From Gordonia hongkongensis (GTDB lineage: Bacteria; Actinomycetota; Actinomycetes; Mycobacteriales; Mycobacteriaceae), in contig NZ_CP095553.1 in assembly GCF_023078355.1 (NCBI RefSeq), forward strand, positions 1-64,000: a DNA stretch of 64,000 nucleotides. The letters are read 5' to 3'. The first letter of the stretch is position 1, and each line of letters begins with the position of its first letter. Shown here in pieces: positions 9,366 to 50,374 of this stretch. The position numbers were made by a program, and so were the translations under genes. The notes beneath the pieces are model-generated. The model was not told the DNA's origin and did no database searches. It worked only from the letters and a program-made list of their open reading frames with translations.

Positions 9366-10610
9366 ATGATCGAGATTTTTGGGGCCCGGGTACGGCAAGC
9401 GCGTGTGTTGCGGCGGTTAACGGCAACGTCGTTTGCCGACTTGATGGGCTGGACGAATGTTCGTCAGGCGAAGCTGGAGAAGTCGTCGGTGATGCTGTTC
9501 ACCGATGATGAGGTGGAGTCTATGGCGAGGATATTGCGTTTCCCGACAGCATTTTTCGGTTCTGAGCCGCGTACTCGGGTGGCGACATCGGATTTGTTGT
9601 TCAGGGCTCCGAAGTCGATGACGAAAAGCGAGCAGGAGTCTTTGGCTGTGTTCGCGTCGCTGACGGGCGACTTCCTCGAGGACCTGGACGCGCAGGCGAA
9701 GTTGCCGCCGGTGCGGCTGCCGTCGGTTGGTTCTCGCGGCGAGCAGATGCCGGTAGCGCTGGCCGCAGCTGCGGTACGCGATGTGATGGGCCTCGATCGC
9801 CACGAGGAGATCGATGACCTGATGTACGAAGTTGAGCGTATTGGCGCACCGATTGTTGTACGTCGACGCATGGCCGGCGAGTGGGAGAGCGACTTCGCGG
9901 CGACGTCCTCGCGCACCGAACGTCATCAGGGATACTCGACGTGGGTGGGTCAGCACCGGGATCGGCCGTTGCTGGTGTTGCGGGAATCGGAGTCGTGGGA
10001 ACGTACTCGGTTCACCGTCGCGCACGAGTTGGGACACCTGGTTCTGCACTCAGGACGCTCGTGTGACGTGGGTTCCGAGCAAGAGCAGGAAGCGAATCGT
10101 TTCGCTACGGAGTTTCTCGCGCCCCGGGAAGCGATCGCTGCGGAGTTACCGAAAGCGATGTCGCTGCTGAACCTCAAGCCGCTCAAGGACAAGTGGGGAT
10201 TGTCGCTGGGTGCGTTGATCCGTCACCTCAACGACACCGGGTTGATCGACTCGAAGCGGGCCGACATGCTCAACCGGCAGATGCGTACTCGGAAGAATCC
10301 GGCGACCGGGCATTCGTGGAGTATGACCGAGCCTGGGTGGGATGAGCGTGTCGTGGAGCGGCCGCGGCTAATCTCGAAGTGGGTGGAACGCTGCTACGGG
10401 ACGGTGTCGGTACCGATGCTCGCCGCACGCGACGCGAACGTGTTGGCTCCCGATGTGTTGGAGTGGTTGCTCGCGCTGCAGCGATCAGCGCCACCGTCAC
10501 GACCCGTGCACTCCAGGCAGTCGATGTTGGTTGCCGAACCGTATGATCCGGAGTTCACGCCTCTTGCCCCGATCACCGATCTGGATTTGTGGCGCGACCG
10601 CCATGCCTGA
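9366..10610 (+). CDS. XRE-family regulator with ImmA/IrrE metallopeptidase domain
   Basis: 414 residues. An N-terminal helix-turn-helix (~1-55) is followed by an IrrE/ImmA (DUF955) zinc-peptidase domain with HELGH (coded near 10,022) and a downstream Glu in the EQEANRFATEFLAP motif. Such proteins typically cleave a repressor in response to stress or mobile-element induction. The partner is probably the 8585 product or the repressor of the neighbouring element. A tail of ~120 residues is of unknown use. Confidence 0.8.
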   Translation: MIEIFGARVRQARVLRRLTATSFADLMGWTNVRQAKLEKSSVMLFTDDEVESMARILRFPTAFFGSEPRTRVATSDLLFRAPKSMTKSEQESLAVFASLTGDFLEDLDAQAKLPPVRLPSVGSRGEQMPVALAAAAVRDVMGLDRHEEIDDLMYEVERIGAPIVVRRRMAGEWESDFAATSSRTERHQGYSTWVGQHRDRPLLVLRESESWERTRFTVAHELGHLVLHSGRSCDVGSEQEQEANRFATEFLAPREAIAAELPKAMSLLNLKPLKDKWGLSLGALIRHLNDTGLIDSKRADMLNRQMRTRKNPATGHSWSMTEPGWDERVVERPRLISKWVERCYGTVSVPMLAARDANVLAPDVLEWLLALQRSAPPSRPVHSRQSMLVAEPYDPEFTPLAPITDLDLWRDRHA

Positions 10611-10625
10611 CAGTTCAGGGGTGTG

Positions 10626-11840
10626 ATGGCGGTGGCGAAGGTCCAGCGAATGGTGTTGCCGGACGGGAAGGTGTCCTACACCGTGGTCGGTTCGAATCGC
10701 CTCACGATCACCGAGGCCCGCGAGTATCTGCGGTTCCTCGTTGAGGCTGGCGCATCGCCGAACACAGTGAAAAGTTACGCCTACGGGCTGGCCGCGTGGT
10801 GGACGGTGCTCGATCACACCGGTCACAAGTTCGACGACTTTCCGACCACGTTGTTCGGTAGCTACCTGTCCTACCTGCGTACCGGTGATCTACCCGGAAC
10901 CACACGCATCGGCACACCCGATGAGTCGCGCGGGATGGCAGCGGCGTCACTGCAGCCCCGTGGTGCGGCGGTGTTGTCGATGTACAAGTACTTCGCCGAC
11001 GCCCACGACCTGCTCACCCCGTACCGTCGGCTGTTCTCCTCACATGCCCGTGCCGCCCGGCGTAATCCGTACGCAGGGTTCTTGACCGGTATCGGGCCGC
11101 GCCGACAACACGAGCAACCTATCTACCGGCGTAGGTCACCCAACCGCACGGAGACACCGGTGTTGTTGCCGCAGCAGGTGATAACGATCCTTGATTCGTG
11201 CTCGACCCAACAGTCCGGGACGTGGACAGGTAGCGCGGCCGGACTACGGGATCGTCTGTTCTTCGCGGTGTTAGCCGAGACGGGCATGCGGATGGGTGAG
11301 GCATTGAGTTTGCGCCATCACGACTTCCACATCAGTGGTGGTGGCACACCGTATGTGCAGATCGTCGACCGCGGCGACCATCCACATGGGATGCGTGCGA
11401 AGTCGGGTGGTCGTCGCATCTTCATCGGTGACGACCTCGTCGGGATCTACAGCGAGTTCGTGTGGCAACTCGTTGCGCAAGGCGCTGATGTGGTGGTCGA
11501 CGACCTGTCGACCCATTTCGTATTCGTCAACCTCGTGCGCGGTGAGAAGTATGCGGCGATGCGCCCGGAAACGGTGTACGACAAGGTCGATGCCATCAAG
11601 GCCACCCATTCGGACTTGCCCGCCGAGTGGACACCGCACTGGTTTCGCCACACCCACGCAACCGCATTGCTGCTCAGCGGCGCTCCGCCGCATGTGGTGA
11701 TGCGCAGGCTTGGCCACGCCGATGTGCAAACAACGCTGTCGATCTACGGGTGGGTGACCGAGGACGCAGAGATGCGGTCGGTCGGGCAGTGGAAGAGCTA
11801 TGTCGCCGGGTGGAAAGGCCTTCATGAGCAACATCAGTGA
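10626..11840 (+). CDS. tnpA: Tn554-type tyrosine recombinase TnpA
   Basis: 404 residues. An N-terminal SAM-like core-binding domain (TVKSYAYGLAAWW) precedes a catalytic domain with Arg in ETGMRMGEALSL, HWFRHTHAT (H-x-x-R region), LGHADVQTT and the nucleophile in LSIYGW. It overlaps tnpB by 17 bp, and tnpC follows tnpB, which is the order of Tn554-family transposons. ATG 10626 is preferred to GTG 10623. Confidence 0.85.
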   Translation: MAVAKVQRMVLPDGKVSYTVVGSNRLTITEAREYLRFLVEAGASPNTVKSYAYGLAAWWTVLDHTGHKFDDFPTTLFGSYLSYLRTGDLPGTTRIGTPDESRGMAAASLQPRGAAVLSMYKYFADAHDLLTPYRRLFSSHARAARRNPYAGFLTGIGPRRQHEQPIYRRRSPNRTETPVLLPQQVITILDSCSTQQSGTWTGSAAGLRDRLFFAVLAETGMRMGEALSLRHHDFHISGGGTPYVQIVDRGDHPHGMRAKSGGRRIFIGDDLVGIYSEFVWQLVAQGADVVVDDLSTHFVFVNLVRGEKYAAMRPETVYDKVDAIKATHSDLPAEWTPHWFRHTHATALLLSGAPPHVVMRRLGHADVQTTLSIYGWVTEDAEMRSVGQWKSYVAGWKGLHEQHQ

Positions 11841-14069
11841 CCGTCGCCGCGCAGCGACGTCACACCAGCCCTCTGCAGTCGAGATTTCCACGAACTGGAC
11901 GCGTGAATGGGCGCGGGTGCCCGAAGCCTGGCGCACGCTGATCATTCGGGTCGACGCCCGCGAGGACCTGGTCGCGTTGTTCGTACAGAACTACCGATTC
12001 CGCGGCCGCACCATCGATTTCACACCCACAGGTGTGCCCGAGCGCATTGTGCAGGAGGTGATGTGGTGGTTGTGGCTGTGCGGGCGGGAAGGTATCCGCA
12101 AGATTGAGCCGTCGACGTTGAAGTGGTGCTCACGCACTCTGACGACGGCGGTCGCCGGTTTCCGCCGCGACCACGGCCGTGATCCCGACAGCATCACCGA
12201 CATGGAGGTGGGTGCGCTGCTGCGGGTGGCGTTGAAGGGGTTCGAGCAGCGCAACGGACGGCTACCCTCGACCTACTCCCGCCGCAACATCACCTATCTG
12301 GTCGAGTCGATGCACCTCTATCTGTCGGTGCGGTGCACTGACAAATCGTGGTGGCAACACGACATCTGGGATTTACGCGCCGATGCCCGTATCCCCGTCC
12401 GCGAACATGAACCGTTCCACGACCACAATGTCGTGCTCAGCGACATCGAACCCGGATGGTTGAGAGAGGGCGTCAGATTCTGGTTGAGTACCTGCCTGAC
12501 CGGTGAACTGCTGCGATGGACATCGCTGAGTGATCGCGCCCGAGGGATGGCGCGGCACCTGGGTCCGTTCCTTACATCTAAGGCGATCACCAGTCCGGTG
12601 ATCAGCTCCGACCGGGCAGTGCTGCGTCAAACGTTCCGCGACTACACCGCCTACCTGGAGTCACAGGAGGGGCAATCGCGTCCGGGTAAACCGCTCACCC
12701 AAAACGCCATCGACAATGCGCGGTCACGCGCCCAGTCGTTCTATGCGTTCATGGCCGACAACGCCGAAGAGGCTGCCGCGGTGACCGGCGATCAACGGTG
12801 GGCGAAGTTGACAGACTCGCACACCCGCTTGTGGGGCCCTGCATTTCGTCCCGGACGGCGCAAGAACACACGAGAACTCACCTGGTACTCGACCGCAGAC
12901 CTGCAGCAGATGCTCAACTACCTCGATGTGCTGGCCGCAGATCTGGGTCACCCGGTCAGCATCACCCACCCCGACGGAACCATATCCCTGGTGGCCGGCC
13001 TCGGTGATCCGCAAGCGGCTCGTACGTGGCTGCTGCAGGCGCTGACAGGTCGCCGGGCCTCGGAGATCCTTATGCTCGATTTCGATCCTCTGGAGGCCAT
13101 TGCGGGCCAGAAACCCCCGACCCCGATGACCCCGACGCGTTCGTGGCGAAGCTGCGGTACCAGCAGACCAAAGTTGACGGCGTCCTACCGACCATCCTCG
13201 TCGAGCAAGCCGTCGTGAACGTGGTCACCGAGCAGCAAGACTGGTTGCGCGCCCGCTACCCCGATGTGGAGTCGAAGTATCTGTTCCTCGGGTTGCGTCA
13301 CCATAATCAGGGCCAACTGCCCCGCAGCTATCACTCCTACGGTGAGAAGCTGCGTCAACTCGACAAAATTCACGGCCTCGTCGACGCCGCCGGGCACCGG
13401 TTGCAATTCTCGCAAACACATCGGCTGCGCCACACCCGTGCCACCGAACTCCTCAACGACGGTGTACCCATTCACGTCGTACAGCGGTACCTCGGGCACG
13501 CCTCCCCGGAGATGACGCTGCGATACGCCGCCACCCTAGAAGCGACCGCCGAAGCAGAATTCCTCAAGCACAAGAAGATTGGCGCCTCGGGAGCAGACAT
13601 CGGGATCAGTCCGTCGGACATCTACGACATGACCCAGCTCTCGCAACGCACCGACCGCGTGCTGCCCAACGGAGTGTGCCTGCTGCCGCCGCTGAAATCC
13701 TGCGACAAGGGCAACGCATGCCTGACCTGCGGTCACTTCGCTACCGATGCAACCCATCTCGATGAACTCACCGATCAACGCCGCAAGACCCTCACCCTCA
13801 TCGACGTGCGTCGCCGCCAGTACCACGAACGCACCGGCCGCGAACTCACCGATGACAACGTGTGGATCCACGAACGTCGCCGCGAACTCGCCTCACTCGA
13901 CGCAATCATCAACCGTCTACACGCAGAGTCCGAACAGATAGTCGCCGGGGCCGGTACCGCTCAGCGCTTACCGCTGCTGCAGATCAAGACTCGCGGCAGC
14001 CATGAATCTGCCCTCCGCAAAGCCGACTCCAGCGAACCTAACGATCAGCGCGGCCAGGAGACAAAGTGA
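11824..14069 (+). pseudogene. tnpB: Tn554-type tyrosine recombinase TnpB, frame-disrupted
   Basis: The N-terminal frame runs from ATG 11824 to the catalytic Arg region (TGRRASEILML). It then breaks near 13,108-13,118 at a CCCCC run. The rest continues in the -1 frame with THRLRHTRATEL, YLGHASPEMTLRYA and the Cys cluster CDKGNACLTCGHF. Adding one base restores a 748-residue protein of usual family form. The break separates the first catalytic Arg from the H-x-x-R and Tyr. It is either a true mutation, a sequencing deletion or (least likely) programmed frameshifting. Confidence 0.8.
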
Positions 14070-14470
14070 GTCCAGCCGTGCCGCCACCACCAGGCGAGAA
14101 AGCTCGACTCGGTCTGGCCCGCTACCGCAAACACCGGTCGGCAGCCAAACGCCACGACATCGAGAAAGCGGTACGCGCCCTGCGCAAAGCAGGGGCCCCC
14201 ATCTCCGTGGCAGCCGTCGCTGAGAAGGCCAACGTCTCACGCAACACGATCTACAAGCACAAAGACATCCTCGCCACGATCGACCAGTACCGCACCCACC
14301 CGGTCAACACCAACGAAAGCAGTCCGTCCCCACGAGAATCATCGGTCGTGGCTGCTCTGCGTCGCAAACTTGCCGCCACGCAAGCAGAGAACGCTGCACT
14401 CAAAGCTGCAGTCGCAGAACGTGACACAACGATCGCGATCCTCTACGGCCAACTCGATCAACGCCAGTGA
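14066..14470 (+). CDS. tnpC: Tn554-type TnpC (DUF6262)
   Basis: 134 residues. The N-terminal KARLGLARYRKHRS...VSRNTIYKHK is a helix-turn-helix followed by a C-terminal coiled coil (AALRRKLAATQAENAALK), as in the accessory TnpC of Tn554-like elements, which affects orientation and efficiency of transposition. GTG 14066 overlaps the tnpB stop. Confidence 0.8.
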   Translation: MSPAVPPPPGEKARLGLARYRKHRSAAKRHDIEKAVRALRKAGAPISVAAVAEKANVSRNTIYKHKDILATIDQYRTHPVNTNESSPSPRESSVVAALRRKLAATQAENAALKAAVAERDTTIAILYGQLDQRQ

Positions 14471-23045: not shown

Positions 23046-23855
23046 TTATCGGTATTCGGCCAGCCTCGGCAGCACCTCGACAAGTCGGTGGTAGATGTCG
23101 GGCCAACCGGCGGCGAGGCGGGTGATGTGGCCGTTGTCCAGGCGGGAGGGGTCGATCATGGCGTTGACCCTGGCGGTGTGGGTATCGGCGCCGAGGGATG
23201 CGAGTGTGGCGTAGAGCGGGTTCGGCGGGATGTTGCGAGCGGCGCTGTACTGCCACACCTGTTCGGTGCTCCAGTTCCAGATAGGCCCGAAGCTGCTGGT
23301 GCCGTCGCCGCGGCGCACCATACCGCGAGGTACGTCGCCGCTGTGGCGGGCGGCCTGGGTGCGGTAGAGGTGGCGGCGGCCGGCGGATTCGTCGGCACGA
23401 ACACCCCACAGGTTGGCCGGCCCGAACACGGCATGCGCACGGGCAGCCGGCGCGGTGATCATTGCCTGGCGCATGTCCACATCGAGGTGCCGGGTCGGCG
23501 CGGTCGGATCGAGGTCGCCGGCCGCGATGAGCAGGGTGAGCAGATCGGGTTCGGTCGGCACCACGTGCAGATTCAGCTCCCACGCGGCGGCGAGAACGGC
23601 GAGGTAGGTGCGGGTTTCGGGGAAGTCCAGGCCGCAGTCGTAGAACACCACCGGCACCGCCGGGTCCACGCGGCGAGCCAGATCGACCACCACGGTGCTG
23701 TCCTTGCCACCCGACCAGGCCACCCACATCCCGCCGTGACGATCGCGATAGTCGGCGATCTGGGCTAGCACCGCGGCACCGTCGGAACGTCGGCCGCGGA
23801 CCGCCCGCAGCGCGGTGAGGTCCAATCCGGGGTCGAGACCATCGCCGCCGGACAT
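23046..23855 (-). CDS. CysH-like PP-loop protein (type IV-B CRISPR-associated)
   Basis: 269 residues with the ATP-pyrophosphatase P-loop SGGKDS at residues 48-53 and a PAPS-reductase-type Rossmann fold. The C-terminal ECGLH-type Cys motif of true PAPS reductases is absent, so sulfate assimilation is unlikely. CysH-like genes are known companions of type IV-B CRISPR-Cas loci, and csf genes lie 3.5-8 kb away on the same strand. It is the last gene of the operon 25860-23046. Function in type IV-B systems is not established; nucleotide activation or RNA/DNA modification is speculative. Confidence 0.8.
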   Translation of the reverse strand: MSGGDGLDPGLDLTALRAVRGRRSDGAAVLAQIADYRDRHGGMWVAWSGGKDSTVVVDLARRVDPAVPVVFYDCGLDFPETRTYLAVLAAAWELNLHVVPTEPDLLTLLIAAGDLDPTAPTRHLDVDMRQAMITAPAARAHAVFGPANLWGVRADESAGRRHLYRTQAARHSGDVPRGMVRRGDGTSSFGPIWNWSTEQVWQYSAARNIPPNPLYATLASLGADTHTARVNAMIDPSRLDNGHITRLAAGWPDIYHRLVEVLPRLAEYR

Positions 23856-23873: not shown

Positions 23874-24101
23874 TTACCGCTTGCGGCGGCGGGAGGCGGC
23901 GGTGTTGATGTGCGGCACCTCAGGGGTTTCGTTGTCGGCGGCGGGGTCGCCGGGCTCGACCGAGCGGAAGCTGTTGATACCGAAGCGGATATCGTCGTGC
24001 ACGATCAGCACATCGTTCCACCGGCCACGCCCCAGCGGCTCGCCCTTCTTCTTTCGCGGTGGAATCGGGGGAAGATCTTTGGGTGGGCGGGTAGCAGACA
24101 T
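23874..24101 (-). CDS. small basic protein
   Basis: 75 residues with basic ends (PPRKKKGEP and SRRRKR), no family recognised. ATG 24101 has GGAG 8 bases upstream, overlapping the end of the preceding gene. It lies between the ADP-ribosyltransferase-like and CysH-like genes. Confidence 0.6.
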   Translation of the reverse strand: MSATRPPKDLPPIPPRKKKGEPLGRGRWNDVLIVHDDIRFGINSFRSVEPGDPAADNETPEVPHINTAASRRRKR

Positions 24102-24103
24102 GA

Positions 24104-25111
24104 TCAGGGCTCCTTGGTGTCTCGGGCCGCTGCACGCGCGGCGGCAGCAGCTCGACGGTCGGAAAACAGTCGACGGCCGGTGACCGGCGGCTGGTAGTCG
24201 GGATCGCGTGGGGTGTCGCGCAGCTGCACGACCAGGGCGGAGTCGTGACCTCCGGGGCGGGCATAGTCGGCGTGCTCGTCAATGCCGGCCACCCGCATCC
24301 CCAACCCGCGGGGAAGGATGTGGCTGGTGTCGTTGACACTGTCCGAGCGGCCCAGATACATGCCTCGGGATGTTTCGATCTCCAGGATCACCGTCGACGC
24401 ACCTGAGCCGCCGCCCTCGGCGCGGCGGCGGTCAGCCACCGCAGCAGCTTCGTGCAGGGTGTGAGTGGCCATCGTGTACTGGTCAAACGAGATCCGCGCC
24501 CCGGGCTGCAACGTGGCCGGCACATCACGACGACGGGTGACCGCGGTGTCGGTGGGCAGCTCGACGACCGCGTACACCACATGCCCACGGCCGCTGTCGC
24601 GTTCGTAGCTTTGGATCAGCCGGTCCAGGCGTTGCACCGAGCGGCGATCACGCTCGGGCAACTGTTGGGCGTCACCGGTCGCTGCACGCAGCGACGAGTT
24701 CAGATGCTTCCACCGCTGCGGATCACGGACCGCCCAACTCATCTCACGTATCTGGCTCTGCGGGGCGGTCTCATGGACGCGACGTTTGGCCGCAGAGCGG
24801 TCTTTGCGTTGCCGCGAGGACAGATCGCTGCGGAACTCCCCGCGAGCGGGCAGCTGCCGCCGTTTGCGGTCATCATCGACGCTCGAGGTGTCGCGGGGGA
24901 ACGCGCGATCACGATCGCGGGCCGCACGGTTGCGGGAGGTGTCGTCCTCGACGACCCGATCAGATAGGTCGGCGCCGATACGGGTCTGTTCCATCGCGTC
25001 GTAGAACTTCTCGGCCACCAGACCCGCGGACTTGATCGCCGCGTCGTCGACCGGCCCGGCCTCGAGGTCGATGACCCCGTGCCCGGTGTAGGCCGTCCGC
25101 GTGGAACTCAC
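24104..25111 (-). CDS. putative ADP-ribosyltransferase-fold protein
   Basis: 335 residues. The N-terminal ~150 residues are charged. The C-terminal half has the order of an ADP-ribosyltransferase domain: VVYAVVELP near the first strand, GARISFDQYTMATHT at the S-T-S position, and ILEIETSRGMYLGR with DTSHILPRGLGMRVAGI at the E-x-E/pGt position. The canonical Arg and Glu are not clear (His in place of Glu), so activity is doubtful. GTG 25111 follows the stop of the HTH gene by 6 bp. Confidence 0.45.
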   Translation of the reverse strand: MSSTRTAYTGHGVIDLEAGPVDDAAIKSAGLVAEKFYDAMEQTRIGADLSDRVVEDDTSRNRAARDRDRAFPRDTSSVDDDRKRRQLPARGEFRSDLSSRQRKDRSAAKRRVHETAPQSQIREMSWAVRDPQRWKHLNSSLRAATGDAQQLPERDRRSVQRLDRLIQSYERDSGRGHVVYAVVELPTDTAVTRRRDVPATLQPGARISFDQYTMATHTLHEAAAVADRRRAEGGGSGASTVILEIETSRGMYLGRSDSVNDTSHILPRGLGMRVAGIDEHADYARPGGHDSALVVQLRDTPRDPDYQPPVTGRRLFSDRRAAAAARAAARDTKEP

Positions 25112-25116
25112 GACAC

Positions 25117-25860
25117 TCAGCTTGGCAGAAACACCAGCCGCGCGCCGTCAACGCCGGCCGCGGCGCGCGCGGCGCACACCTGGTGGGTGGGCAACGGAAG
25201 CTGCTCGCGCGCCGGCCACTGGCGATCCATCTGCTCATCGGTGGCACACACCCACACGATCGGGTCGTCCGGATCGATGTCGGCGGCGAGTTCATCGATG
25301 TGTGCGCGCACCGCCGCGGCGATCTCGGCGATGTCGGCCAGCACCGACGCCGGCGCGGGACGGTCGCCGAACATCCAGTACTGCACGCCACGTTTGCGAA
25401 CATCGAACCAGCGCTGCATCTGCCCCAGGCCGATCCCGCAGGCTGCGGTCACGCACAGCAGCCACGCCTGGCGTTCGGTGCCGTCGACGTCGCGGCGCAC
25501 GACCGTCGCCGTCGGCACCGCCATCGCCGCACGGCCGGCGCACACCCGATGTACTCCTTCGAGGCGGATACGCCCATCGGTCTGCGCGACGACGACGTCG
25601 TTGCCGGCGAACGTGGTGATCGTCCCCGTGGTGGCGACGTCTTCGATCAGGCGGACCGTCTCCGCGGCCGCGGCCGCGGTGATCTCCTCGAGCAGCTCAT
25701 CAACGGTGTCGGGGACCGGCAGTCGTCCCGACTCCCATCCGGCAACGCTGCCCGCCGGCATACCGGCGAGCTGCTCGAGATCGGCTTCACGCAAACCCAC
25801 CGCCAGGCGGGCGCACCGCGCGTGTGCTGCATCAACTGTGCTCATCATTAGCGCCGTCAT
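25117..25860 (-). CDS. putative DNA-binding protein, first gene of the CysH-like operon
   Basis: 247 residues. Residues ~12-60 (AVGLREADLEQLAGMPAGS...WESGRLPVPDTV) form a XRE-like helix-turn-helix. The remainder is not recognised. ATG 25860 has AAAGGA seven bases upstream and a GAGAC-type leader hairpin 31-46 bases upstream. It probably regulates its operon. Confidence 0.6.
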   Translation of the reverse strand: MTALMMSTVDAAHARCARLAVGLREADLEQLAGMPAGSVAGWESGRLPVPDTVDELLEEITAAAAAETVRLIEDVATTGTITTFAGNDVVVAQTDGRIRLEGVHRVCAGRAAMAVPTATVVRRDVDGTERQAWLLCVTAACGIGLGQMQRWFDVRKRGVQYWMFGDRPAPASVLADIAEIAAAVRAHIDELAADIDPDDPIVWVCATDEQMDRQWPAREQLPLPTHQVCAARAAAGVDGARLVFLPS

Positions 25861-27320: not shown

Positions 27321-28067
27321 TCACCACTGCGCCTCGTCGGGTGCGGGCAGATACGCGCCGATCGCGTGGCGGCTGGGGTGGGCGTACGGGGCGCGGACCG
27401 CGACCCGGGAACGGCCCCCGTGGGCGATGTCCGGGTGCTCGGCGACGCACTGTGCCGGGGTGCTGCGGCCCAGGACGCCGGGATGGTGTTCGTGGCCGGC
27501 CGACCAGACGTCGTCACCGGGTGCCGGTTCGATGGTCCATGAGCTGACGCGGCCTTCGCCGCTGGTGCGGTACTTACCGATCTCGGTGACCTCGGCGAGC
27601 AGCTCGGTGATCTTCTCGGGGTCGCCGACGGCCCGCCACGTCGCGGTCGCGGTGATCGTGGCGACGGCGGGAATCAGGCGTTTGCGGTAGTGCCCGCGCG
27701 TATCGGAGACGGTGGAGGGCACCGAGGGTGCGAGGCGTTGCAGATCAGCATGATCGGTGCGGCTCGACCTCATCCGCGGCTCCGGTTGTGCGGTGGCGGG
27801 CGCGGTGTGGGCGAAGGTGCACATCCAGTGCCACGGCTGGCCGAGATCGCAGCGGGCCAGGGGCAGCTCCAGGTCTTCCGGCACCGCGAGGGGGTCGTAG
27901 GTGAGGACCTCACCGCGGGCGGCGGCGGTGGCTTTGCGGCGGTGCCAGAGCACCGAGGCCAGAAGGCCGTCGAGGCTGATGCCCCACGGGGTGCCGAAGC
28001 ACACCCCGTGCGGCAGTTCGGCAGTCACTCGCAGCGGCATCCTCACGCTCTGACCCATGGCGGTCAC
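27321..28067 (-). CDS. csf3: type IV-B CRISPR-Cas Csf3 (Cas5-like)
   Basis: 248 residues (or ~239 from ATG 28040, MPLRVTAEL, which looks like the family start). A RAMP-type beginning (LRVTAELPHGVCF) is followed by ISLDGLLASVLW, the conserved L-D-x-L-L-A helix of Csf3, and a C-terminal HPSRHAIGAYLP. As Cas5-like subunit it would cap the 5' end of a guide RNA in the Csf complex. It is separated from csf2 by an inverted HEPN gene. The ~220 bp upstream have no clear promoter. Confidence 0.75.
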   Translation of the reverse strand: MTAMGQSVRMPLRVTAELPHGVCFGTPWGISLDGLLASVLWHRRKATAAARGEVLTYDPLAVPEDLELPLARCDLGQPWHWMCTFAHTAPATAQPEPRMRSSRTDHADLQRLAPSVPSTVSDTRGHYRKRLIPAVATITATATWRAVGDPEKITELLAEVTEIGKYRTSGEGRVSSWTIEPAPGDDVWSAGHEHHPGVLGRSTPAQCVAEHPDIAHGGRSRVAVRAPYAHPSRHAIGAYLPAPDEAQW

Positions 28068-28306
28068 GTGCTGAGGTGCTGCACACTGCGAGCGGGTAGA
28101 CGGTTGGCGAAGTGCAACTCCGGCCCGAGGGCGTTGCGGTCAATATGAATCCAAGTCCACATCCGCCCAGGATGCCAACGCCCGTGAGGCCAGTCGAGCA
28201 CACCACGAGCTGACCGGCCTCATCGTCGACCTACAGGACCAGATCAGTACCCGGATAGACTCCCCCGCAGCATGCTGGATATGTCTCTTTGCGAGGGGTT
28301 ACGAGA

Positions 28307-29677
28307 GTGATTGCGGTCGATGCCCAGATCCAAGAGGTATGGAACCCAGAAACCAGAACACTCGCCACCGAGGCGTGGCAGTGCTACAACAGCGGTGCTG
28401 TACGCGCGAGCATCACCATCACGTGGACAGCCGTGACCACCGATCTCATCGCCAAGATCGGGTCCCTGGCAGACGACGGCGACAGAGACGCCATCGATCT
28501 CCGAGAGGAGGAGATTGAGAAGGCTCAGGCCCACGGCCTAACCCCCCAGGGCACCATCGCAATGCAGAGGATCGAGAACAAGCTACTCGATAGTGCTCAA
28601 CTCCTAGAACTTATCGACAGCGTGGATAAACGTGCACTGGAACGCATCCGCGAAGACCGAAACCTGTGCGTGCACCCATCGCTTCGCGGTCTCAATGCGC
28701 CATACGAACCCCTGCCTGACGTAGCTCGCGCAAACCTCTCGGTTGCACTCGACGCACTACTCATTCACCCACCCACGCAGGGAAAGAAGATCCTCGACGT
28801 CTTCAAGGATTACACCTGTGATCCAGGATTCTCGACGTCTACTCCGACCCATATCCAGCGCCTGTTCTACGATCGTGTGCGTACCAACACCCGCCGCAAT
28901 ATTGCTACCCTCGCAGCCAAACATGCTGTTGGAGAACTAGATGTCGGCGGAAAGCTGCCTGTGAGCGCATACGCCGATCGATGTGCTCATGTCCTCGCCG
29001 CAATCGCGGAGCGCGATCGGGTACTTGTTCGCGAAGCGATGCAAAGGTGCCAAGATCGGTACCGCCGCTCCGACATAGAGACACAACGCCGAGCCCTCAG
29101 CAGACTCGGCGACAAGGACTACTTCTGGGCGATGCTCGACGCCTCTTTGACTGCACACGTCAGCACTTTGATCCCACAGGTCACCTACTCACCATGGGAC
29201 ACCCTCGAGCCGACCGCGATCGGTGTTCTTTCGCTCGTCGGCAACGCCCTTGCCCGCGGACAGATGAGCCAGCTGGAGCAGCGCTTCGAGTCGTTGAGCG
29301 AGCAGCACAAGGTCTTGGTCATGTCTGCCCGGCCATCGGCGTACTTCGTTCCTCACATCCTCGCTCTACTCCGGAGCGCCGCCAACTTCAGGGCAGGAGA
29401 GCGCGCCGGTGAGGTTCTTCAGATCCACTCGCAGTACCTGACTATCCCCGATCTGCAACAGGCACTTTCGGTTTGGGCCGCGAACGGAGAGTGTCGATTG
29501 GCAGTGGGCATGCCGCCGAGGAGTGTTTCACTGCTCGCGGAAACCGCCCACCTAGGATCAGGTCGAGTTCAGCTTTTCCGCACATTCCTGACTGACGTTC
29601 GCGCAGCGTGGGACCCTTTGGAGCCGGAGTTCTATCGATACAACGATCTCGAGGCGGCACTAACTAGGGCGCCGTGA
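28307..29677 (+). CDS. HEPN-domain protein inserted between csf2 and csf3
   Basis: 456 residues from GTG 28307 (GAGGGG eight bases upstream). The N-terminal ~125 residues resemble HEPN domains: CYNSGAVRASITITWTAV helix, then REDRNLCVHP with R118-x4-H123, the RNase-type HEPN motif. The remaining ~330 residues are helical and not recognised. It is opposite in strand to all csf genes, tail to tail with csf2 (30 bp) and divergent from csf3. The 150 bp before it contain a start-less coding-like stretch (near 28,150-28,250), perhaps a remnant of the insertion. Confidence 0.65.
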   Translation: MIAVDAQIQEVWNPETRTLATEAWQCYNSGAVRASITITWTAVTTDLIAKIGSLADDGDRDAIDLREEEIEKAQAHGLTPQGTIAMQRIENKLLDSAQLLELIDSVDKRALERIREDRNLCVHPSLRGLNAPYEPLPDVARANLSVALDALLIHPPTQGKKILDVFKDYTCDPGFSTSTPTHIQRLFYDRVRTNTRRNIATLAAKHAVGELDVGGKLPVSAYADRCAHVLAAIAERDRVLVREAMQRCQDRYRRSDIETQRRALSRLGDKDYFWAMLDASLTAHVSTLIPQVTYSPWDTLEPTAIGVLSLVGNALARGQMSQLEQRFESLSEQHKVLVMSARPSAYFVPHILALLRSAANFRAGERAGEVLQIHSQYLTIPDLQQALSVWAANGECRLAVGMPPRSVSLLAETAHLGSGRVQLFRTFLTDVRAAWDPLEPEFYRYNDLEAALTRAP

Positions 29678-29707
29678 TCATCGCGAACTCGCGCACCTCT
29701 CGCTCGT

Positions 29708-30565
29708 TCAGGTGAGCTGGTTGAGCGCAGCAAGTGCGTCGTCGCGGCCGGTGCGAACGACGCTGCGCCAGTCGGGGGTTACAGGCGCGCTAGCGCCAGA
29801 CTGAGTGATGGTGGCGGTGATGCGGCCGTGGCCGGCGCCGGTGCGGCCGCCAAGGTGGCCGTGGGTGGAGAAGTGCTCGAGGATGTCAGCCAGCAGCGCG
29901 TACTCAACCGGGCTGGCGTGGGTGAGGCGGATCTGTCCGGACAGGCGGGTGCCGGCGATGAGGGTTTCGGTGTCGAGGCGAATAGGGCTGTACCCCTCGC
30001 CGGCCTCGCCGTCGACGGTGGCAGCGGCGGATAGGTCGTTGCTGTGGCTGGTGGATTCCTGGCCAAGGATGGTATGCACCGACGCCGGTATCGCCACGCC
30101 ATCCGGGGGTGAGATGGGGAGTAAGTGCAGGGTGTCAGCGGTGACCGGAACGACCTTGGACACCACCAGTTTCCCGGACATGACTCGCGCGTTCGCCGCA
30201 CCACCGAACAGCCCGATCAGCGGCACCAGGGTCTTGAGTTCGCGTTCCTGTTCGGGGGTCATCTCGCGGGTTGATTTGCGCAGGAACCCGCCGTTACGCA
30301 GCAAGTGCGCGGCCGCGGGGGTCAGCTGGCCCTCGTAGTTGAGGACCTCGGCGAGGAGTGTTTCGCCGGTGCGGCGCAGGATGCCGCGCCAGGCGTTGCC
30401 GGAGATGATCGGCACCACCGCCACCTGTCCGGCCGGGGTCAGAACTTTCTCACGGCGGAACAGGCTCTCGATCGAGGCTGCGTTGCGGGTGTCGTCGCGG
30501 TGCACGATCGACGTCGTGGCGGTGATGTCGAGATCGAACACCGCACTGATCAACGGTTGCCCCAT
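29708..30565 (-). CDS. csf2: type IV-B CRISPR-Cas Csf2 (Cas7-like backbone)
   Basis: 285 residues. Cas7/RAMP features: SAVFDLDITATTSIVHRDD, GNAWRGILRRTGETLL, and the C-terminal glycine-rich LGGRTGAGHGRI. Csf2 forms the filament that holds guide RNA in type IV complexes. ATG 30565 overlaps the cas11 stop (TGATG). The longer open frame upstream is cas11 read in another frame. Confidence 0.85.
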   Translation of the reverse strand: MGQPLISAVFDLDITATTSIVHRDDTRNAASIESLFRREKVLTPAGQVAVVPIISGNAWRGILRRTGETLLAEVLNYEGQLTPAAAHLLRNGGFLRKSTREMTPEQERELKTLVPLIGLFGGAANARVMSGKLVVSKVVPVTADTLHLLPISPPDGVAIPASVHTILGQESTSHSNDLSAAATVDGEAGEGYSPIRLDTETLIAGTRLSGQIRLTHASPVEYALLADILEHFSTHGHLGGRTGAGHGRITATITQSGASAPVTPDWRSVVRTGRDDALAALNQLT

Positions 30566-31011
30566 CAGCCCTCCCCCGCCTGTGCGGATTCGGCGGCTGC
30601 GCGGCGGTTGTCGGCGACGGTTTCGGTGATGATCCGGACCCGCAGGATCAGGGCGGGTAGCTGGTCGCGGAGCAGGTTGAGCACCGGCGCCGACGGCTCG
30701 GTAAGTAGCTGGGCGACCTCGAGGCGCCGCGCCCGGTCGGTGACCGTGATGGGGAGGGCTTGGGCCAACAGGGACCACCAGGTGGCCAGGCTGTCGGCGC
30801 GGTAGGTCGCCGCCCGTACGCGGGCCGGGAGCAGCTCGTCCCAGTAGCGGTGACGGTGATCGCCGATCCAGGAGTCCCAATCCAGGTCGTAGTGCACCAG
30901 CAGCAACAACCGTTCGGCGCAGATCGCGGCCGGGTCGGTCAGCGCCGGCAGTTCCGGGACCGCGGCCCGCCATCGCATGGTCGGCGTCGACCCCTCGTCG
31001 GTCGTGCTCAC
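30565..31011 (-). CDS. cas11: type IV-B small subunit (Cas11-like)
   Basis: 148 residues, almost wholly helical, with the size and position (between csf1 and csf2) of the Cas11-like subunit of type IV-B complexes. GTG 31011 overlaps the csf1 stop (GTGA). Assigned mainly on context; sequence is too diverged for motif recognition. Confidence 0.7.
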   Translation of the reverse strand: MSTTDEGSTPTMRWRAAVPELPALTDPAAICAERLLLLVHYDLDWDSWIGDHRHRYWDELLPARVRAATYRADSLATWWSLLAQALPITVTDRARRLEVAQLLTEPSAPVLNLLRDQLPALILRVRIITETVADNRRAAAESAQAGEG

Positions 31012-31785
31012 CCGGCCCGCCTCGCCGTCGCGGCCGGACCGACTGGTGTGGACAGGGCGATCGCGGCGTCCCACCACGCCCCAGGGTGGGTGCGCCACAC
31101 CGTCAGAGCGTCCCAGGCGGTGAGCAGCTGGGGCCACTGGTCAGCCGGCAGGGCGCGTATCAGCGTCATCGGCGGGGTGGGGTCGGTGAGCATGGCCGCA
31201 CGCACCCCGGGCAGGGTGCGTAGCCATCGCAGAGCGGTCAACAACGCCACCGCGACATCATCCCACCGGATGGCCGTGTCGTCGGTGCAGACATGCCCCC
31301 ACCGTGCGGTCGGGAGGATGTGGCGGCGACCACGGACCGGCACCACCGCCATCCGGTCGACCGGTAGCGGGCCGGCGGCCAGCAACTCCCCCAGCTCGGT
31401 GCGCTCAACGACGGTGCGAGCGGGGCAATGCTGATCGACAAGGTAGACGCTGCGGCGCAGTTCGGCTGTGCTGTAGGCCCATCCGCACGCCGCGCACAAC
31501 CAGTCCCCCGCCATACACCCAGGATTCGGCGTCGGTGAACTTGCGGGAGACCACCGACAGCGCGGCCACCAGCGGTAGGTCGGTGGCCCCGCAGCAACAG
31601 CACCACTCCCCCTGCTCGGGTAGATCGGCCGTGGGTGGGTTCGGCCGGCCGGCGGCGGTCCAGGCCGTGAACGCAGGAGACCCGGCAGCCGAGCGGGTCT
31701 GGGACCTCCTCGGCTGCCGGGCCTGTCGGGAACGCGATACTGCGGGCGAACCTGATATGTGAGAAGTGCTGGTAAGCCTACCCAT
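31008..31785 (-). CDS. csf1: type IV-B CRISPR-Cas Csf1 (Cas8-like large subunit), frame-disrupted
   Basis: The 5' frame from ATG 31785 has CCCCG (first zinc half) and runs to SWVYGG. A GGGGG run near 31,510 then shifts the frame, and the 3' frame continues with DWLCAACGWAYSTAELRR (second zinc half) to 31,008. Removing one G gives a 258-residue Csf1 with the paired CxxC zinc finger seen in the family. The start overlaps the upstream stop by 8 bp and has no good ribosome binding site. Either an assembly error or a real lesion. Confidence 0.75.
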
Positions 31786-41408: not shown

Positions 41409-43091
41409 TTAGTGGTAGCGGCGGAAGGTGATGGGTTTGGAGAAACCGTTGTGGATGTTGTCGATACGGACCTTGGTGCCTGACTGAGGGGCGTTGACCA
41501 TTTTCCCTCCACCCATGTAGATCCCGACGTGCGTGGCGACGCCCTCGCCGCCGAAGAAGACCAGATCGCCAGGCTCGGCGTGTGCCTCGTCTGGTACCGG
41601 GATGCCTCCGGTCGACTGCGGTTGGGAGGTGCGGGCGATGGTCTTGCCGGTCGCTTTGTGCACCGCGTAGCGGGCCAGCGCCGAGCAGTCCCAGCCGGGA
41701 ATCGCGTAGTCCTGGTGCGCATCGCCGGCGCCACCGTCATCACTGATTCCCTTGGTGGGTCCATTGAGGTCGCCACCACCCCAGGAGTAGCGGATACCCA
41801 TCTGAGAGGCAGCAGCGGCGACGATGTTGGGTCCGGCCGGTCCTCCGGGTCGGAATCCCTCGATGTCGGCACTGCCGGGTACCGGTGCTTGTGGGAGGCA
41901 CGCCCCGCCGCCGGGGGCTGTGTTGCCGTTGCCGGGAGCGGCGGTGCCGCTGGGGTTGGTGCCGGTGGTGGCCCAGGCGGCGGGATTGATGGCGTGGCCG
42001 CCGTCGAAGTCGCGGTGCCCGCCATCCCACACCTCGAAATGCAGGTGCGCACCGGTGGATTGGCCGTTGTTTCCGACTTTGCCGATGAGCTGCCCGGCGG
42101 TGACTTTCTGCCCCTTTTTGACGAGGACGCCATCGGGATACATGTGGCCGTAGACGGTAGCGAACAGTTTGCCGTCGATCTGATGGTTGAGAACGATCCA
42201 CTGCCCGAACCCGCTGGCGGGGCCGGCGTCGACGACCGTGCCGTCAGCGACGGAGTAGAACGGCGTGTTGACCGGAGCGGCCAGGTCGATCCCCTGGTGC
42301 TGTTCGCCGCCGCGCGGACCGAACGGTGACGACACCTGGTAGGTACCGTCTTTCATCGGCTTGACCTGAGTGCCCGGCGACGCGCTCTGTTCCGGAACCG
42401 CCGCAGCTGCATCGCTACCGACGGTCTCCACATAGTCGGTGACCTGCGAGTTGTCGGACAGCGCGGCAACGATCTTGGTTGCCTGCCCCATGTATTCCCG
42501 AGAGGCCTCAGCGCCGGTGGAGTTGCCCTGTACCTCGTGGCCTGCTTGGGCGGGGTCCATGCCCTGCCAGTTGGGCAGTTTGAGTAGGGCGTTGAGGAAC
42601 CTGTCGGTGGCGATCGCCGGGTTCATCAGCTCTTGCGGGGTGCCCCATCCCCACTGCGGTTGCTGCTGGAGGTAGCCGATCGACCTGCCGTTGTAGCCCA
42701 CGCCGTCGTTGGGTAGCGACATCGACTCGGGCTCAGCAGGATTGGACAGGTTCCTCAGACCGGATTCGTCGAGTCCGACCGCGATGACGATGATCGCTGC
42801 TTTGGCCGGCAGTTTTCGGGCCGCGACCCTGCCGACCGCGGTCGCGGCGATCCGCGTCTGCTGCGGGTTGAGGCCGGCGATCTGTGCCCCACCCGGAGCC
42901 AACTCAAGTGTCGGGATCGGCCCACAGGCGCCGCCGCTGCCGCCGACCATCATCACCAGCATCAATGGCGGCAGTAGGAACACGACCGGCACGACAGCGA
43001 GCAGCCACAACCACCACCGACGCTTCCCCGGAGCGTCGGGGGCGGGTGGGCGTGTTGGCGTGGGCGGTGCAGGCGCGGTGGTGACTGTCAC
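41409..43091 (-). CDS. T4SS peptidoglycan hydrolase with M23 and NlpC/P60 domains
   Basis: 560 residues. A membrane anchor (~27-50) is followed by a lysozyme/transglycosylase-like part (GLNPQQTRIAATAVGR to ~220), an M23 endopeptidase domain (HQGIDLAAP and HLHFEVW zinc ligands) and a C-terminal NlpC/P60 domain (catalytic Cys in WDCSALARY, His in THVGIYMGGG). It opens the cell wall for the conjugation channel. GTG 43091. Confidence 0.9.
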   Translation of the reverse strand: MTVTTAPAPPTPTRPPAPDAPGKRRWWLWLLAVVPVVFLLPPLMLVMMVGGSGGACGPIPTLELAPGGAQIAGLNPQQTRIAATAVGRVAARKLPAKAAIIVIAVGLDESGLRNLSNPAEPESMSLPNDGVGYNGRSIGYLQQQPQWGWGTPQELMNPAIATDRFLNALLKLPNWQGMDPAQAGHEVQGNSTGAEASREYMGQATKIVAALSDNSQVTDYVETVGSDAAAAVPEQSASPGTQVKPMKDGTYQVSSPFGPRGGEQHQGIDLAAPVNTPFYSVADGTVVDAGPASGFGQWIVLNHQIDGKLFATVYGHMYPDGVLVKKGQKVTAGQLIGKVGNNGQSTGAHLHFEVWDGGHRDFDGGHAINPAAWATTGTNPSGTAAPGNGNTAPGGGACLPQAPVPGSADIEGFRPGGPAGPNIVAAAASQMGIRYSWGGGDLNGPTKGISDDGGAGDAHQDYAIPGWDCSALARYAVHKATGKTIARTSQPQSTGGIPVPDEAHAEPGDLVFFGGEGVATHVGIYMGGGKMVNAPQSGTKVRIDNIHNGFSKPITFRRYH

Positions 43092-48952: not shown

Positions 48953-50374
48953 TTATCGAGGTCCCAGATCGATGCCGCCGGGGCCGAGTAGTGATCCACC
49001 ACCGCAGCCGGATGACGGTGTTGAGGTGGGGGCAGAGGTGGAGCCGCGCGGGCTGCTCGGCTCGCTGGTCACTGTGGGCAGGACGTCGTCAGAGCCCGCC
49101 TCGTCATCACCGCCACCGCGGCCGGAGTCAGAGGTTGGTTCGCTGCTGGCGGGAGCAGAAGTCTCCGCGCCGGTCGGAGTGTCGGCGTTCTCGTCCTCCT
49201 CGCCGGCCAGCGAGGACGCGACGTCTGATCCGTTGACGCCGGCCGCCGGGGCGGGATCGAGTGCGCTGACTTCCCAGCGGCCCGCGCGTGCAGCCATCGT
49301 CAGGGCATAGGCCCCAGTGAGTGCATCTGTGGAGCTGGCGGTCCCGGGTGGTTGTTGGGAGATGGTGAGCAGCAGTCGTGCTCGTTGGCCATCAGCCGGG
49401 GTCTCAGCAGAGTCCCCGAGGGACTTCTGCGTGCGGGCTCCGATGACGGAGATGGAGGCGTACGGGGCCGGGGTGATCGCACCGAGGTTGGTTCCAGGGC
49501 TGGTGAAGCGGGTGACGTCGCCGTCACCGGTGAGCATGGCTGAGAGGAATCCTTGTGCGGCGGTGACGATCGCGGCGTTAGAGCTGAGCTGGTTGGAGTA
49601 GTCGAGGTTGACTGTCAGGCCGGTGGAGGGTGCCGGTACAGCGGCGGGCATCGCCATCGCGCGCACCCCTTTGTCTGACACCACCACTGGCACCTGGAAG
49701 TAGCGGCGGGTTGCGGTGTCAGCGCCGGCGGGGGTGACTTCGGCGGACACGGTCACCGCGTAGGTGTCGGCGCCGTCGACCCCAGACACTTCACGCACTC
49801 CGGCGATGTGGGTGTCGGCGGACTCGTAGAGCGCTTGCGCCGGCAGCGCGCCGGTCCCGGCATCCACGTCGACGAAGCGTTGCAGCGATCCCTCGTCACC
49901 GCGGTGGGTGGTCAGCCAGGCCGAGACGAACTGCTGGGCGAGGTCACTGGCTGCGAACTGGGCGGTGTTATCGACCGCTGACACAGCAGGCGGCGCCACT
50001 ACTTCTGGGGCCGCTGATGATCCGCCGCTGAGGTACAACGCGATAGGTCCTGACACCAGCGCCGCGATCACCGCCGCCCGCGCGGCGTGGGTCATCAGCC
50101 GTTGTGTGCTGGTGCCGTTAGCGCGAGCAATGAACTCCTCGTCCTCAGGACTGTGATCCGCCGAACTGGCGGCCTGGGCATCGGAGCCTTCGTGACGGCG
50201 CAGTATCCGGGGGACACTGAGCTGGCCGCGTAGCCGCGCTAACCGCTCCCCCCGCGACAGTGCGGTGTCGTCGTCGTGGAGGTCGCTATCGACCGGGTCC
50301 TGATCGAGCGCAGGGGCGGGGAATTCAAAGACTCCACGCAGGTCACCCTCGGGGCGTTGCTCCGTCGATGTCAC
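48953..50374 (-). CDS. TcpC/VirB8-like transfer protein
   Basis: 473 residues: cytoplasmic ~95, membrane segment (~98-118), two NTF2-like domains (DLAQQFVSAWLTTHRGD... and IVTAAQGFLSAMLTGDGDV...) and a Ser/Gly-rich tail. Tandem NTF2 domains are typical of TcpC of Gram-positive conjugation. GTG 50374. A GAGAC-type leader motif lies 7-20 bp upstream. Confidence 0.75.
   Translation of the reverse strand: MTSTEQRPEGDLRGVFEFPAPALDQDPVDSDLHDDDTALSRGERLARLRGQLSVPRILRRHEGSDAQAASSADHSPEDEEFIARANGTSTQRLMTHAARAAVIAALVSGPIALYLSGGSSAAPEVVAPPAVSAVDNTAQFAASDLAQQFVSAWLTTHRGDEGSLQRFVDVDAGTGALPAQALYESADTHIAGVREVSGVDGADTYAVTVSAEVTPAGADTATRRYFQVPVVVSDKGVRAMAMPAAVPAPSTGLTVNLDYSNQLSSNAAIVTAAQGFLSAMLTGDGDVTRFTSPGTNLGAITPAPYASISVIGARTQKSLGDSAETPADGQRARLLLTISQQPPGTASSTDALTGAYALTMAARAGRWEVSALDPAPAAGVNGSDVASSLAGEEDENADTPTGAETSAPASSEPTSDSGRGGGDDEAGSDDVLPTVTSEPSSPRGSTSAPTSTPSSGCGGGSLLGPGGIDLGPR

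Follow-up and report, generated by a model that had tools for sequence, protein, structure and literature searches.

An array-less type IV-B CRISPR-Cas locus on a Gordonia plasmid, with a candidate sixth core protein and a candidate RNA element

The csf genes of the locus

The window analysed here, the first 64,000 nucleotides (64 kb) of a 113,582-bp plasmid contig of Gordonia hongkongensis (NZ_CP095553.1), whose genome comprises two contigs and 5.41 Mb, contains an array-less type IV-B CRISPR-Cas locus. Profiles for Csf3, Csf2, Cas11 and Csf1 match its products with E values from 1e-96 to 2e-57, and the strong matches of the Csf2 and Csf3 products to type IV profiles bear out an earlier sequence-only reading, which had described a plasmid-borne system of this type. 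That reading missed a cysH gene, a gene (h335) whose product is predicted to have an ADP-ribosyltransferase (ART) fold, a putative RNA element, a split in csf1 and an inserted HEPN gene. The actinobacterial IV-B cassette appears to comprise six proteins: Csf1, Cas11, Csf2, Csf3, CysH and the ART-fold protein. The features of the locus are as follows.

23046..23855, minus strand: cysH-like gene, a hallmark of subtype IV-B (Pfam PAPS_reduct, 7.7e-23)
23874..24101, minus strand: short open reading frame (ORF) for a 75-aa protein, directly downstream of h335
24104..25111, minus strand: h335, 335-aa predicted ART-fold protein, candidate sixth core protein of actinobacterial IV-B
25117..25860, minus strand: 247-aa protein, first gene of the cysH operon, with weak helix-turn-helix (HTH) matches
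27321..28067, minus strand: csf3 (Cas5; PADLOC typeIV_Cas5, E 1.4e-96)
28289..29677, plus strand: HEPN defence-type gene, 462 aa, PD-T7-3/'Dandelion'-like (PADLOC PD-T7-3, 3.9e-20)
29708..30565, minus strand: csf2 (Cas7; PADLOC typeIV_Cas7, E 7e-81; PDB 7jhy Csf2, E 2.4e-65; alignment)
30565..31011, minus strand: cas11 small subunit (PADLOC typeIV_Cas11, E 2e-57; start placed by homology)
31008..31680, minus strand: csf1, Cas8-like large subunit (PADLOC typeIV_Cas8, 1.4e-12 for the N-terminal piece and 1.9e-58 for the C-terminal piece)
31678..31767, minus strand: putative structured non-coding element upstream of csf1, with a 39-nt conserved block and a 16-bp hairpin (~31678-31724)
31775..31780, minus strand: -10-like hexamer TAGGCT, upstream of the RNA element and separated from it by 7 nt

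The csf2 profile covers only residues 142-421 of the product of the ORF at 29708-30973, hence the gene is taken to start near 30565 and not to fill the longer frame; the Cas11 profile match sits in the ORF at 30565-31137. Two frames are needed to account for csf1, profile positions 4-61 falling in the ORF at 31405-31785 and positions 58-214 in that at 31008-31514, and inspection by eye revealed no in-frame ATG, GTG or TTG between the hairpin and the conserved domain. The gene is a single open frame in the close relatives L004, L005 and L006. The split may be a mutation or an assembly error at one site; because of it, the window copy may be inactive. The set csf1-cas11-csf2-csf3, previously described as standing in standard order on one strand, is complete at the level of profile matches, but csf1 lies in two frames and a plus strand gene interrupts csf2 and csf3. 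Decaying IV-B copies were also observed elsewhere in Gordonia: csf2 is in two frames in Gordonia paraffinivorans NBRC 108238 (L029 9377-10912), and a csf2 remnant with two stops is present in G005 (G005:C75:4730-5086).

No CRISPR-like repeats were found across the whole plasmid contig. A DinG helicase at the locus would point to subtype IV-A, but the genome's single DinG-type Helicase_C_2 match falls on the other contig; the sequence-only reading had likewise seen neither repeats nor DinG. Cas1, Cse1 and Cas6e had no match in the 5.41-Mb genome, a search that did not extend to other Cas6 families or chromosomal orphan arrays, and the only RAMP-family match genome-wide is csf2 itself. As these components are missing from the host genome, the earlier suggestion that the complex borrows guides from the host is disfavoured. 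The suggestion made alongside it, that the complex binds non-CRISPR RNA, may hold, and a candidate for such an RNA can be put forward.

The h335 gene and the RNA element

All plasmid ORFs encoding 70 aa or more were compared by tblastn (E up to 1e-6, with 35% or more of the ORF covered) with three distant plasmids hand-picked among 60 listed IV-B plasmids: Xylanimonas pXCEL01 (minus its first 639 bases), Mycolicibacterium aubagnense NZ_CP122997 and Rhodococcus pseudokoreensis NZ_CP070616. Only six genes were common to all three, namely csf1, cas11, csf2, csf3, cysH and h335. Since the Rhodococcus plasmid is linear and has no annotated type IV secretion system (T4SS) genes, a shared conjugation backbone does not explain this set. 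A tblastn search of 72,556 plasmid records, with E values up to 1e-5, detected csf2 in 67, h335 in 58 and cysH in 72, of which 60, 58 and 60 respectively were listed by name; the cysH tally also names Sinorhizobium and Shinella. Set against the 60 listed csf2 records, the overlap was 56 of 58 for h335 and 58 of the 60 listed for cysH. Amongst 397 Mycobacteriales genomes, csf2 was present in six (one a weak match of 24.5 bits), h335 in seven (one a fragment) and both in five (Fisher p 1.6e-9, not corrected for relatedness). Five of the 59 Gordonia genomes had csf2, two of these copies being broken and one lying over two contigs, and the three with h335 all had csf2 as well. At the level of individual loci, h335 was found in 29 of 53, several of which are cut by contig ends or are near-copies of one another, and it lies within 1.9 kb of cysH (between gene centres) in 16 of the 26 locus rows having csf2, cysH and h335, a few of which are near-copies.

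The genes for the 247-aa, 335-aa and 75-aa proteins lie upstream of cysH in one tight operon. Homologues of the 247-aa protein, the Pfam matches of which (Aca2_YdiL, 0.0049; HTH_31, 0.0097) are below the curated cut-offs, were found at 15 of the 53 loci, in Gordonia and mycobacteria only. A short ORF follows h335 in all 11 aligned loci, which were hand-picked, and its sequence is poorly conserved. CysH resembles the CysH-like ATP pyrophosphatases and PAPS reductases, including DndC, profiles of which it matches weakly, in keeping the PP-loop SGGKDS (36 of 37 aligned homologues). It differs from these in that the last 60 alignment columns contain no cysteine in 35 of the 37 homologues, in agreement with PMC8175902 on CasCysH.

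The structural model of h335 has an ART fold. This resemblance was initially recognised by eye and a later Foldseek test agreed: no other fold occurred among the 50 rows listed, these representing a second look at the Foldseek ranking. Compared with mono-ADP-ribosyltransferases of the C3/VIP2/iota type, the predicted protein has only 8-15% identity among these 50 rows and an extra N-terminal region before residue 82. The catalytic signature of ADP-ribosyltransferases is R-S-E (or H-Y-E). In an alignment of 80 rows, H177, Y180, D210, E244 and H264 of h335 were invariant and the R-S-E pattern was not, there being neither an invariant arginine in the first core strand nor an invariant glutamate in the stretch preceding LPRG. 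The h335 product is probably not a canonical ADP-ribosyltransferase.

A promoter-like and structural signature of a putative RNA element is evident in Gordonia and mycobacteria, and is weaker in Rhodococcus; elements lie near csf1 or h335 in three genera. In Gordonia, a conserved block beginning ACTTCTCACATATCAGG starts 7 nt after the hexamer TAGNNT, directly upstream of csf1, in all six distinct loci, and is followed by a hairpin, the stem sequence of which varies between loci. Read in the csf1 frame, the block does not resemble codons, its score being undercut by none of 5520 overlapping coding windows, and the fold of the window element has a z score of -6.46. In mycobacteria, a conserved block and hairpin are found beside h335 and csf1; the block begins with ACGAAAC in ten distinct loci, in all of which TANNNT is found 6-8 nt upstream. 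Hence a hexamer is at the expected place in 16 of 16 loci (ten mycobacterial and six Gordonia), in a test that accepted spacings of 5-8 nt; the pass rate for positions drawn at random from these loci is 0.6%. Eight hand-picked sequences of these 16 had fold z scores of -3.6 to -6.5. The mycobacterial 11-bp outer stem has 93.6% of its cells paired, versus 88.4 in shuffles (0/500), with seven cells changed on both sides versus 2.4 in shuffles (0/500) and four pairs changed on both sides versus 1.8 (13/500). The Rhodococcus-type element differs, being around 165 nt long with three main helices and lying upstream of h335; it was found in L009, L037 (a record titled as a Lysobacteraceae metagenome-assembled genome, MAG), L040, L064, L081 (pRHL2 of the laboratory strain Rhodococcus jostii RHA1) and L082.

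BLAST with one mycobacterial copy of the element gave six plasmid records, all in the csf2 list; this list names 11 mycobacterial-type records, and the models find L008 and L065 among the five that BLAST missed. The mycobacterial model, R1, matched 13 mycobacterial sources over its full length, with scores of 53-104 bits; ten of these sources built the model and the other three are copies of those ten. Its one strong match in the 397 genomes was G277, the genome of model row L053. The sequence-only Gordonia model, R2, had strong matches in three of 59 genomes, those of the window and of model rows L025 and L028, and these are the same three that have both csf2 and the ART-fold gene. As the strong matches are in model-row genomes, these scans show absence elsewhere rather than independent finds. 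Weak R1 matches (below 29 bits) in eight of the 397 genomes and two R2 matches at 22.5 bits elsewhere in Gordonia were taken as chance. BLAST with the Gordonia element recovered the three plasmids of that genus, along with two short matches that had E values of 0.1, and that with one Rhodococcus copy gave three plasmid records including itself. In CP049837.1, the Gordonia query matches two places in the record. Rfam had no matches at its gathering thresholds in the plasmid or the loci of five relatives.

A hairpin upstream of csf1 was rejected as a universal feature. Of 59 loci, 6 had no csf1 start to examine, and many of the remaining 53 were at shuffle level (12 simple shuffles per locus); the hairpin was clear in several Gordonia, mycobacterial and Micrococcales loci. 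Separately, the octamer CACCTTCC occurs upstream of both csf1 and h335 in three of the six distinct Micrococcales/Geodermatophilales IV-B loci scanned (L012, positions 1124 and 7620; L013, 2889 and 7604; L076, 90 and 12070). By composition, 0.6-0.9 copies would be expected per locus, and L013 holds four further copies; the octamer is a possible shared promoter or operator.

The csf2-csf3 junction and the plasmid setting

The gene lying in reverse orientation between csf2 and csf3 encodes a HEPN protein that matches PDB 9wxf ('Dandelion', 1.7e-10) and 9wx2 ('Dandelion-hepn', 3e-9). Like PD-T7-3/'Dandelion' (9wxf), it is of similar length and has an N-terminal HEPN domain with an RX4H motif, RNLCVH at residue 124; however, the match spans residues 5-172 only, and the window gene sits inside a CRISPR operon. 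On the plasmid of Gordonia sp. Swx-4 the same slot holds, also in reverse orientation, a HEPN gene that is 82% identical and has the motif RNMCVH. Other contents of the slot are two different small genes in SMJS1, an acyltransferase region in pPAE01, a 169-aa ORF in OPL2 (L023 and L028 being the same locus) and 4.9 kb including a 755-aa ORF in G012. In each of the six distinct Gordonia loci where csf2 and csf3 share a contig, the gap between them exceeds 200 bp, versus 4 of 40 other locus rows (L008, L014, L060 and L061), some of the 40 being near-copies. These gaps and varied inserts make the junction look like a cargo slot in Gordonia. The cargo proteins of the other Gordonia slots had no PADLOC matches and few Pfam matches. 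A DNA cytosine methyltransferase gene was seen between cas11 and csf2 in an Actinomycetota MAG (L052 6579-8672).

The closest csf2 matches, at 83-84% identity, are on the plasmids of Gordonia sp. SMJS1 and Swx-4 and on pPAE01 of Gordonia terrae, and the contig is accordingly read as a Gordonia plasmid. Profile matches to T4SS-type genes within the window are as follows.

41409-43091: M23 and NlpC/P60
45326-48235: AAA_10 ATPase
48953-50374: TcpC
51027-53327: FtsK/SpoIIIE

A conjugative element, as the earlier reading described the replicon, would carry a T4SS ATPase, a coupling protein and a relaxase; the T4SS-type genes above are present, but TrwC, the only relaxase family searched for, had no match genome-wide, and three related Gordonia plasmids are typed as non-mobilizable. 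Further along the contig (76271-78238; L001 12271-14238) is an RNB-domain ribonuclease gene shared with the Swx-4 and Mycolicibacterium aubagnense plasmids; in the latter it adjoins cysH and a gene that occupies the position of the 247-aa one. An IrrE-type peptidase and a tyrosine-recombinase cluster (window 9366-14470) are shared with the M. aubagnense plasmid but not with that of Swx-4.

Competing explanations and known type IV-B systems

Starting from the gene set, its co-inheritance, the predicted fold and the RNA signature, we infer transcription and loading of the element and an action of CysH and the ART-fold protein. The element would be transcribed from its own -10 promoter to give a stable RNA of ~90 nt, and this would be the native RNA, or the nucleating part of it, of a Csf2-Cas11 filament. 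CysH, with its ATP pyrophosphatase motif kept, would partner the ART-fold protein, and together they may effect a nucleotide-dependent modification of, or switch on, the RNA-protein complex that favours the plasmid. This whole reading, combining a six-protein cassette, a structured RNA of its own and the action of CysH and the ART-fold protein on the complex, is tentative and falls somewhat short of an even chance. A bolder generalisation seems rather unlikely: that actinobacterial IV-B systems are not RNA-less remnants but load a fixed, array-free RNA from a dedicated promoter onto the Csf proteins, with the CysH and ART-fold pair using nucleotides to modify that RNA or a target.

A number of observations weigh against this reading. 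Of the 60 listed csf2 plasmids, 4 showed no h335; the gene is also absent from all seven viral-contig IV-B loci and lies ~60 kb from cysH in R. fascians pFiD188. As for the RNA, further pair types in the mycobacterial stem are not above shuffles (170/500), and the 5' end pairs with the 3' end in three of four mycobacterial folds, which is unlike a guide and weakens a crRNA-like interpretation (5' handle, spacer, 3' hairpin) of the mycobacterial RNA. The best other match of the Gordonia block on its own plasmid is 11 nt, as in shuffles, and every strong genome match of R1 and R2 comes from a genome represented in the model itself. The RNA of Rhodococcus exceeds the elements of the other clades in length and differs from them, its covariation is weak (three cells versus 1.0, 14/500; two pairs versus 1.0, 97/500), and its profile matched more weakly in L046, L054 and L055 and did not match the other Rhodococcus loci fetched. 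Searches of Micrococcales and viral IV-B loci with the three profiles revealed no element other than chance-level matches at the thresholds used. Furthermore, the RNA bound by a IV-B complex that had been produced in E. coli was heterogeneous in sequence (PMC7937560), although the RNA sequencing may not exclude the element's RNA, since the expression plasmid is described there as carrying the IV-B Cas proteins with a type I-E Cas6 and array, with no mention of the element in the text consulted.

In mycobacteria and Rhodococcus the element is upstream of h335 on the same strand, and in Gordonia it is directly upstream of csf1, as a cis-acting leader would be. It may then be an attenuator, or a ligand- or protein-sensing leader, whose target is the csf operon in Gordonia and, in mycobacteria, the operon of h335 and cysH, without being bound by the complex. 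The T-run after the hairpin in several mycobacterial copies and the use of different sequences by different clades are also consistent with this, but the element is beside h335 in L007, with csf1 3.5 kb away, and beside csf1 in L008, with h335 ~8 kb away; these placements count against a leader, as a strict one-operon leader would follow its operon. We regard such a leader as close to an even call, about as likely as the favoured reading. An RNA of the system's own would not be needed if the complex were an unspecific RNA-binding filament, acting as a sponge that shields the plasmid from RNA-guided defence. This idea is discussed in PMC8175902, and accords with both the lack of a detected array on the plasmid and the heterogeneous RNA of ~55-60 nt bound by the E. 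coli-made complex (PMC7937560). Yet, with no match to Cas1, Cse1, Cas6e or another RAMP gene in the host, nothing points to a CRISPR system that a sponge would neutralise (other RNA-guided defences were not searched for), and the conserved cysH and h335 would be left unexplained. We consider a sponge improbable.

Two further explanations concern the genes themselves. If the ART-fold gene and its small neighbour were a separate plasmid stability or toxin-antitoxin-like pair merely sharing the same plasmid family, this would fit the small ORF that follows h335 in the aligned loci, the distance of 6-8 kb between h335 and csf2 in three Micrococcales loci and the presence of h335 without csf2 in two of the 397 genomes, G339 and G445, where it lies on contigs of 7.3 kb and 21.5 kb respectively, the G445 copy being a fragment. 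However, h335 is kept beside cysH and csf1 on the linear Rhodococcus plasmid lacking annotated T4SS genes, and the overlap between h335 and csf2 records is about as close as that listed for cysH and csf2. We give an independent pair little probability. The window locus could also be a decaying, inactive copy in which only the HEPN cargo is under selection, as the split csf1 and the broken csf2 copies in G. paraffinivorans and G005 would suggest; whilst this is a serious possibility, the remaining genes of the cassette have open frames, the locus has its RNA element and csf1 may carry an assembly error at one site, and on balance we lean against it.

Were the favoured reading correct, with an ART-fold core partner and the element as native RNA, the source of the RNA and the role of CysH would become testable with defined genes. 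Under the bolder generalisation, a fixed RNA of the system's own would add a third means of programming class 1 complexes to the two given by arrays and borrowed guides. As candidate overlooked parts, the ART-fold protein and the small folded RNA may help to show what array-less systems do. A 2021 review (PMC8175902) names cysH as a hallmark of subtype IV-B and describes both the RNA source and the role of CysH as unknown; a table in a 2024 review (PMC11127173) gives heterogeneous RNA for IV-B and otherwise 'unknown'. Among the titles and beginnings of abstracts listed in the searches, none reports that type IV-B has a native RNA or a partner with an ART fold, a scope that excludes most subscription papers and all preprints.

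Compared with the type IV-B system of Mycobacterium sp. JS623, the complex of which was solved by cryo-EM (PDB 7JHY; PMC7937560), the window locus differs in its split csf1 and in the HEPN gene that interrupts csf2 and csf3. JS623 also has a type I-E system, whereas no other CRISPR system was detected in the window host, and the available text of that account does not mention the ART-fold gene or the RNA element. The two share the same four complex genes in a plasmid-borne operon without an array, the Csf2 proteins match with an E value of 2.4e-65, and the association with cysH, as stated for the subtype, is common to both.

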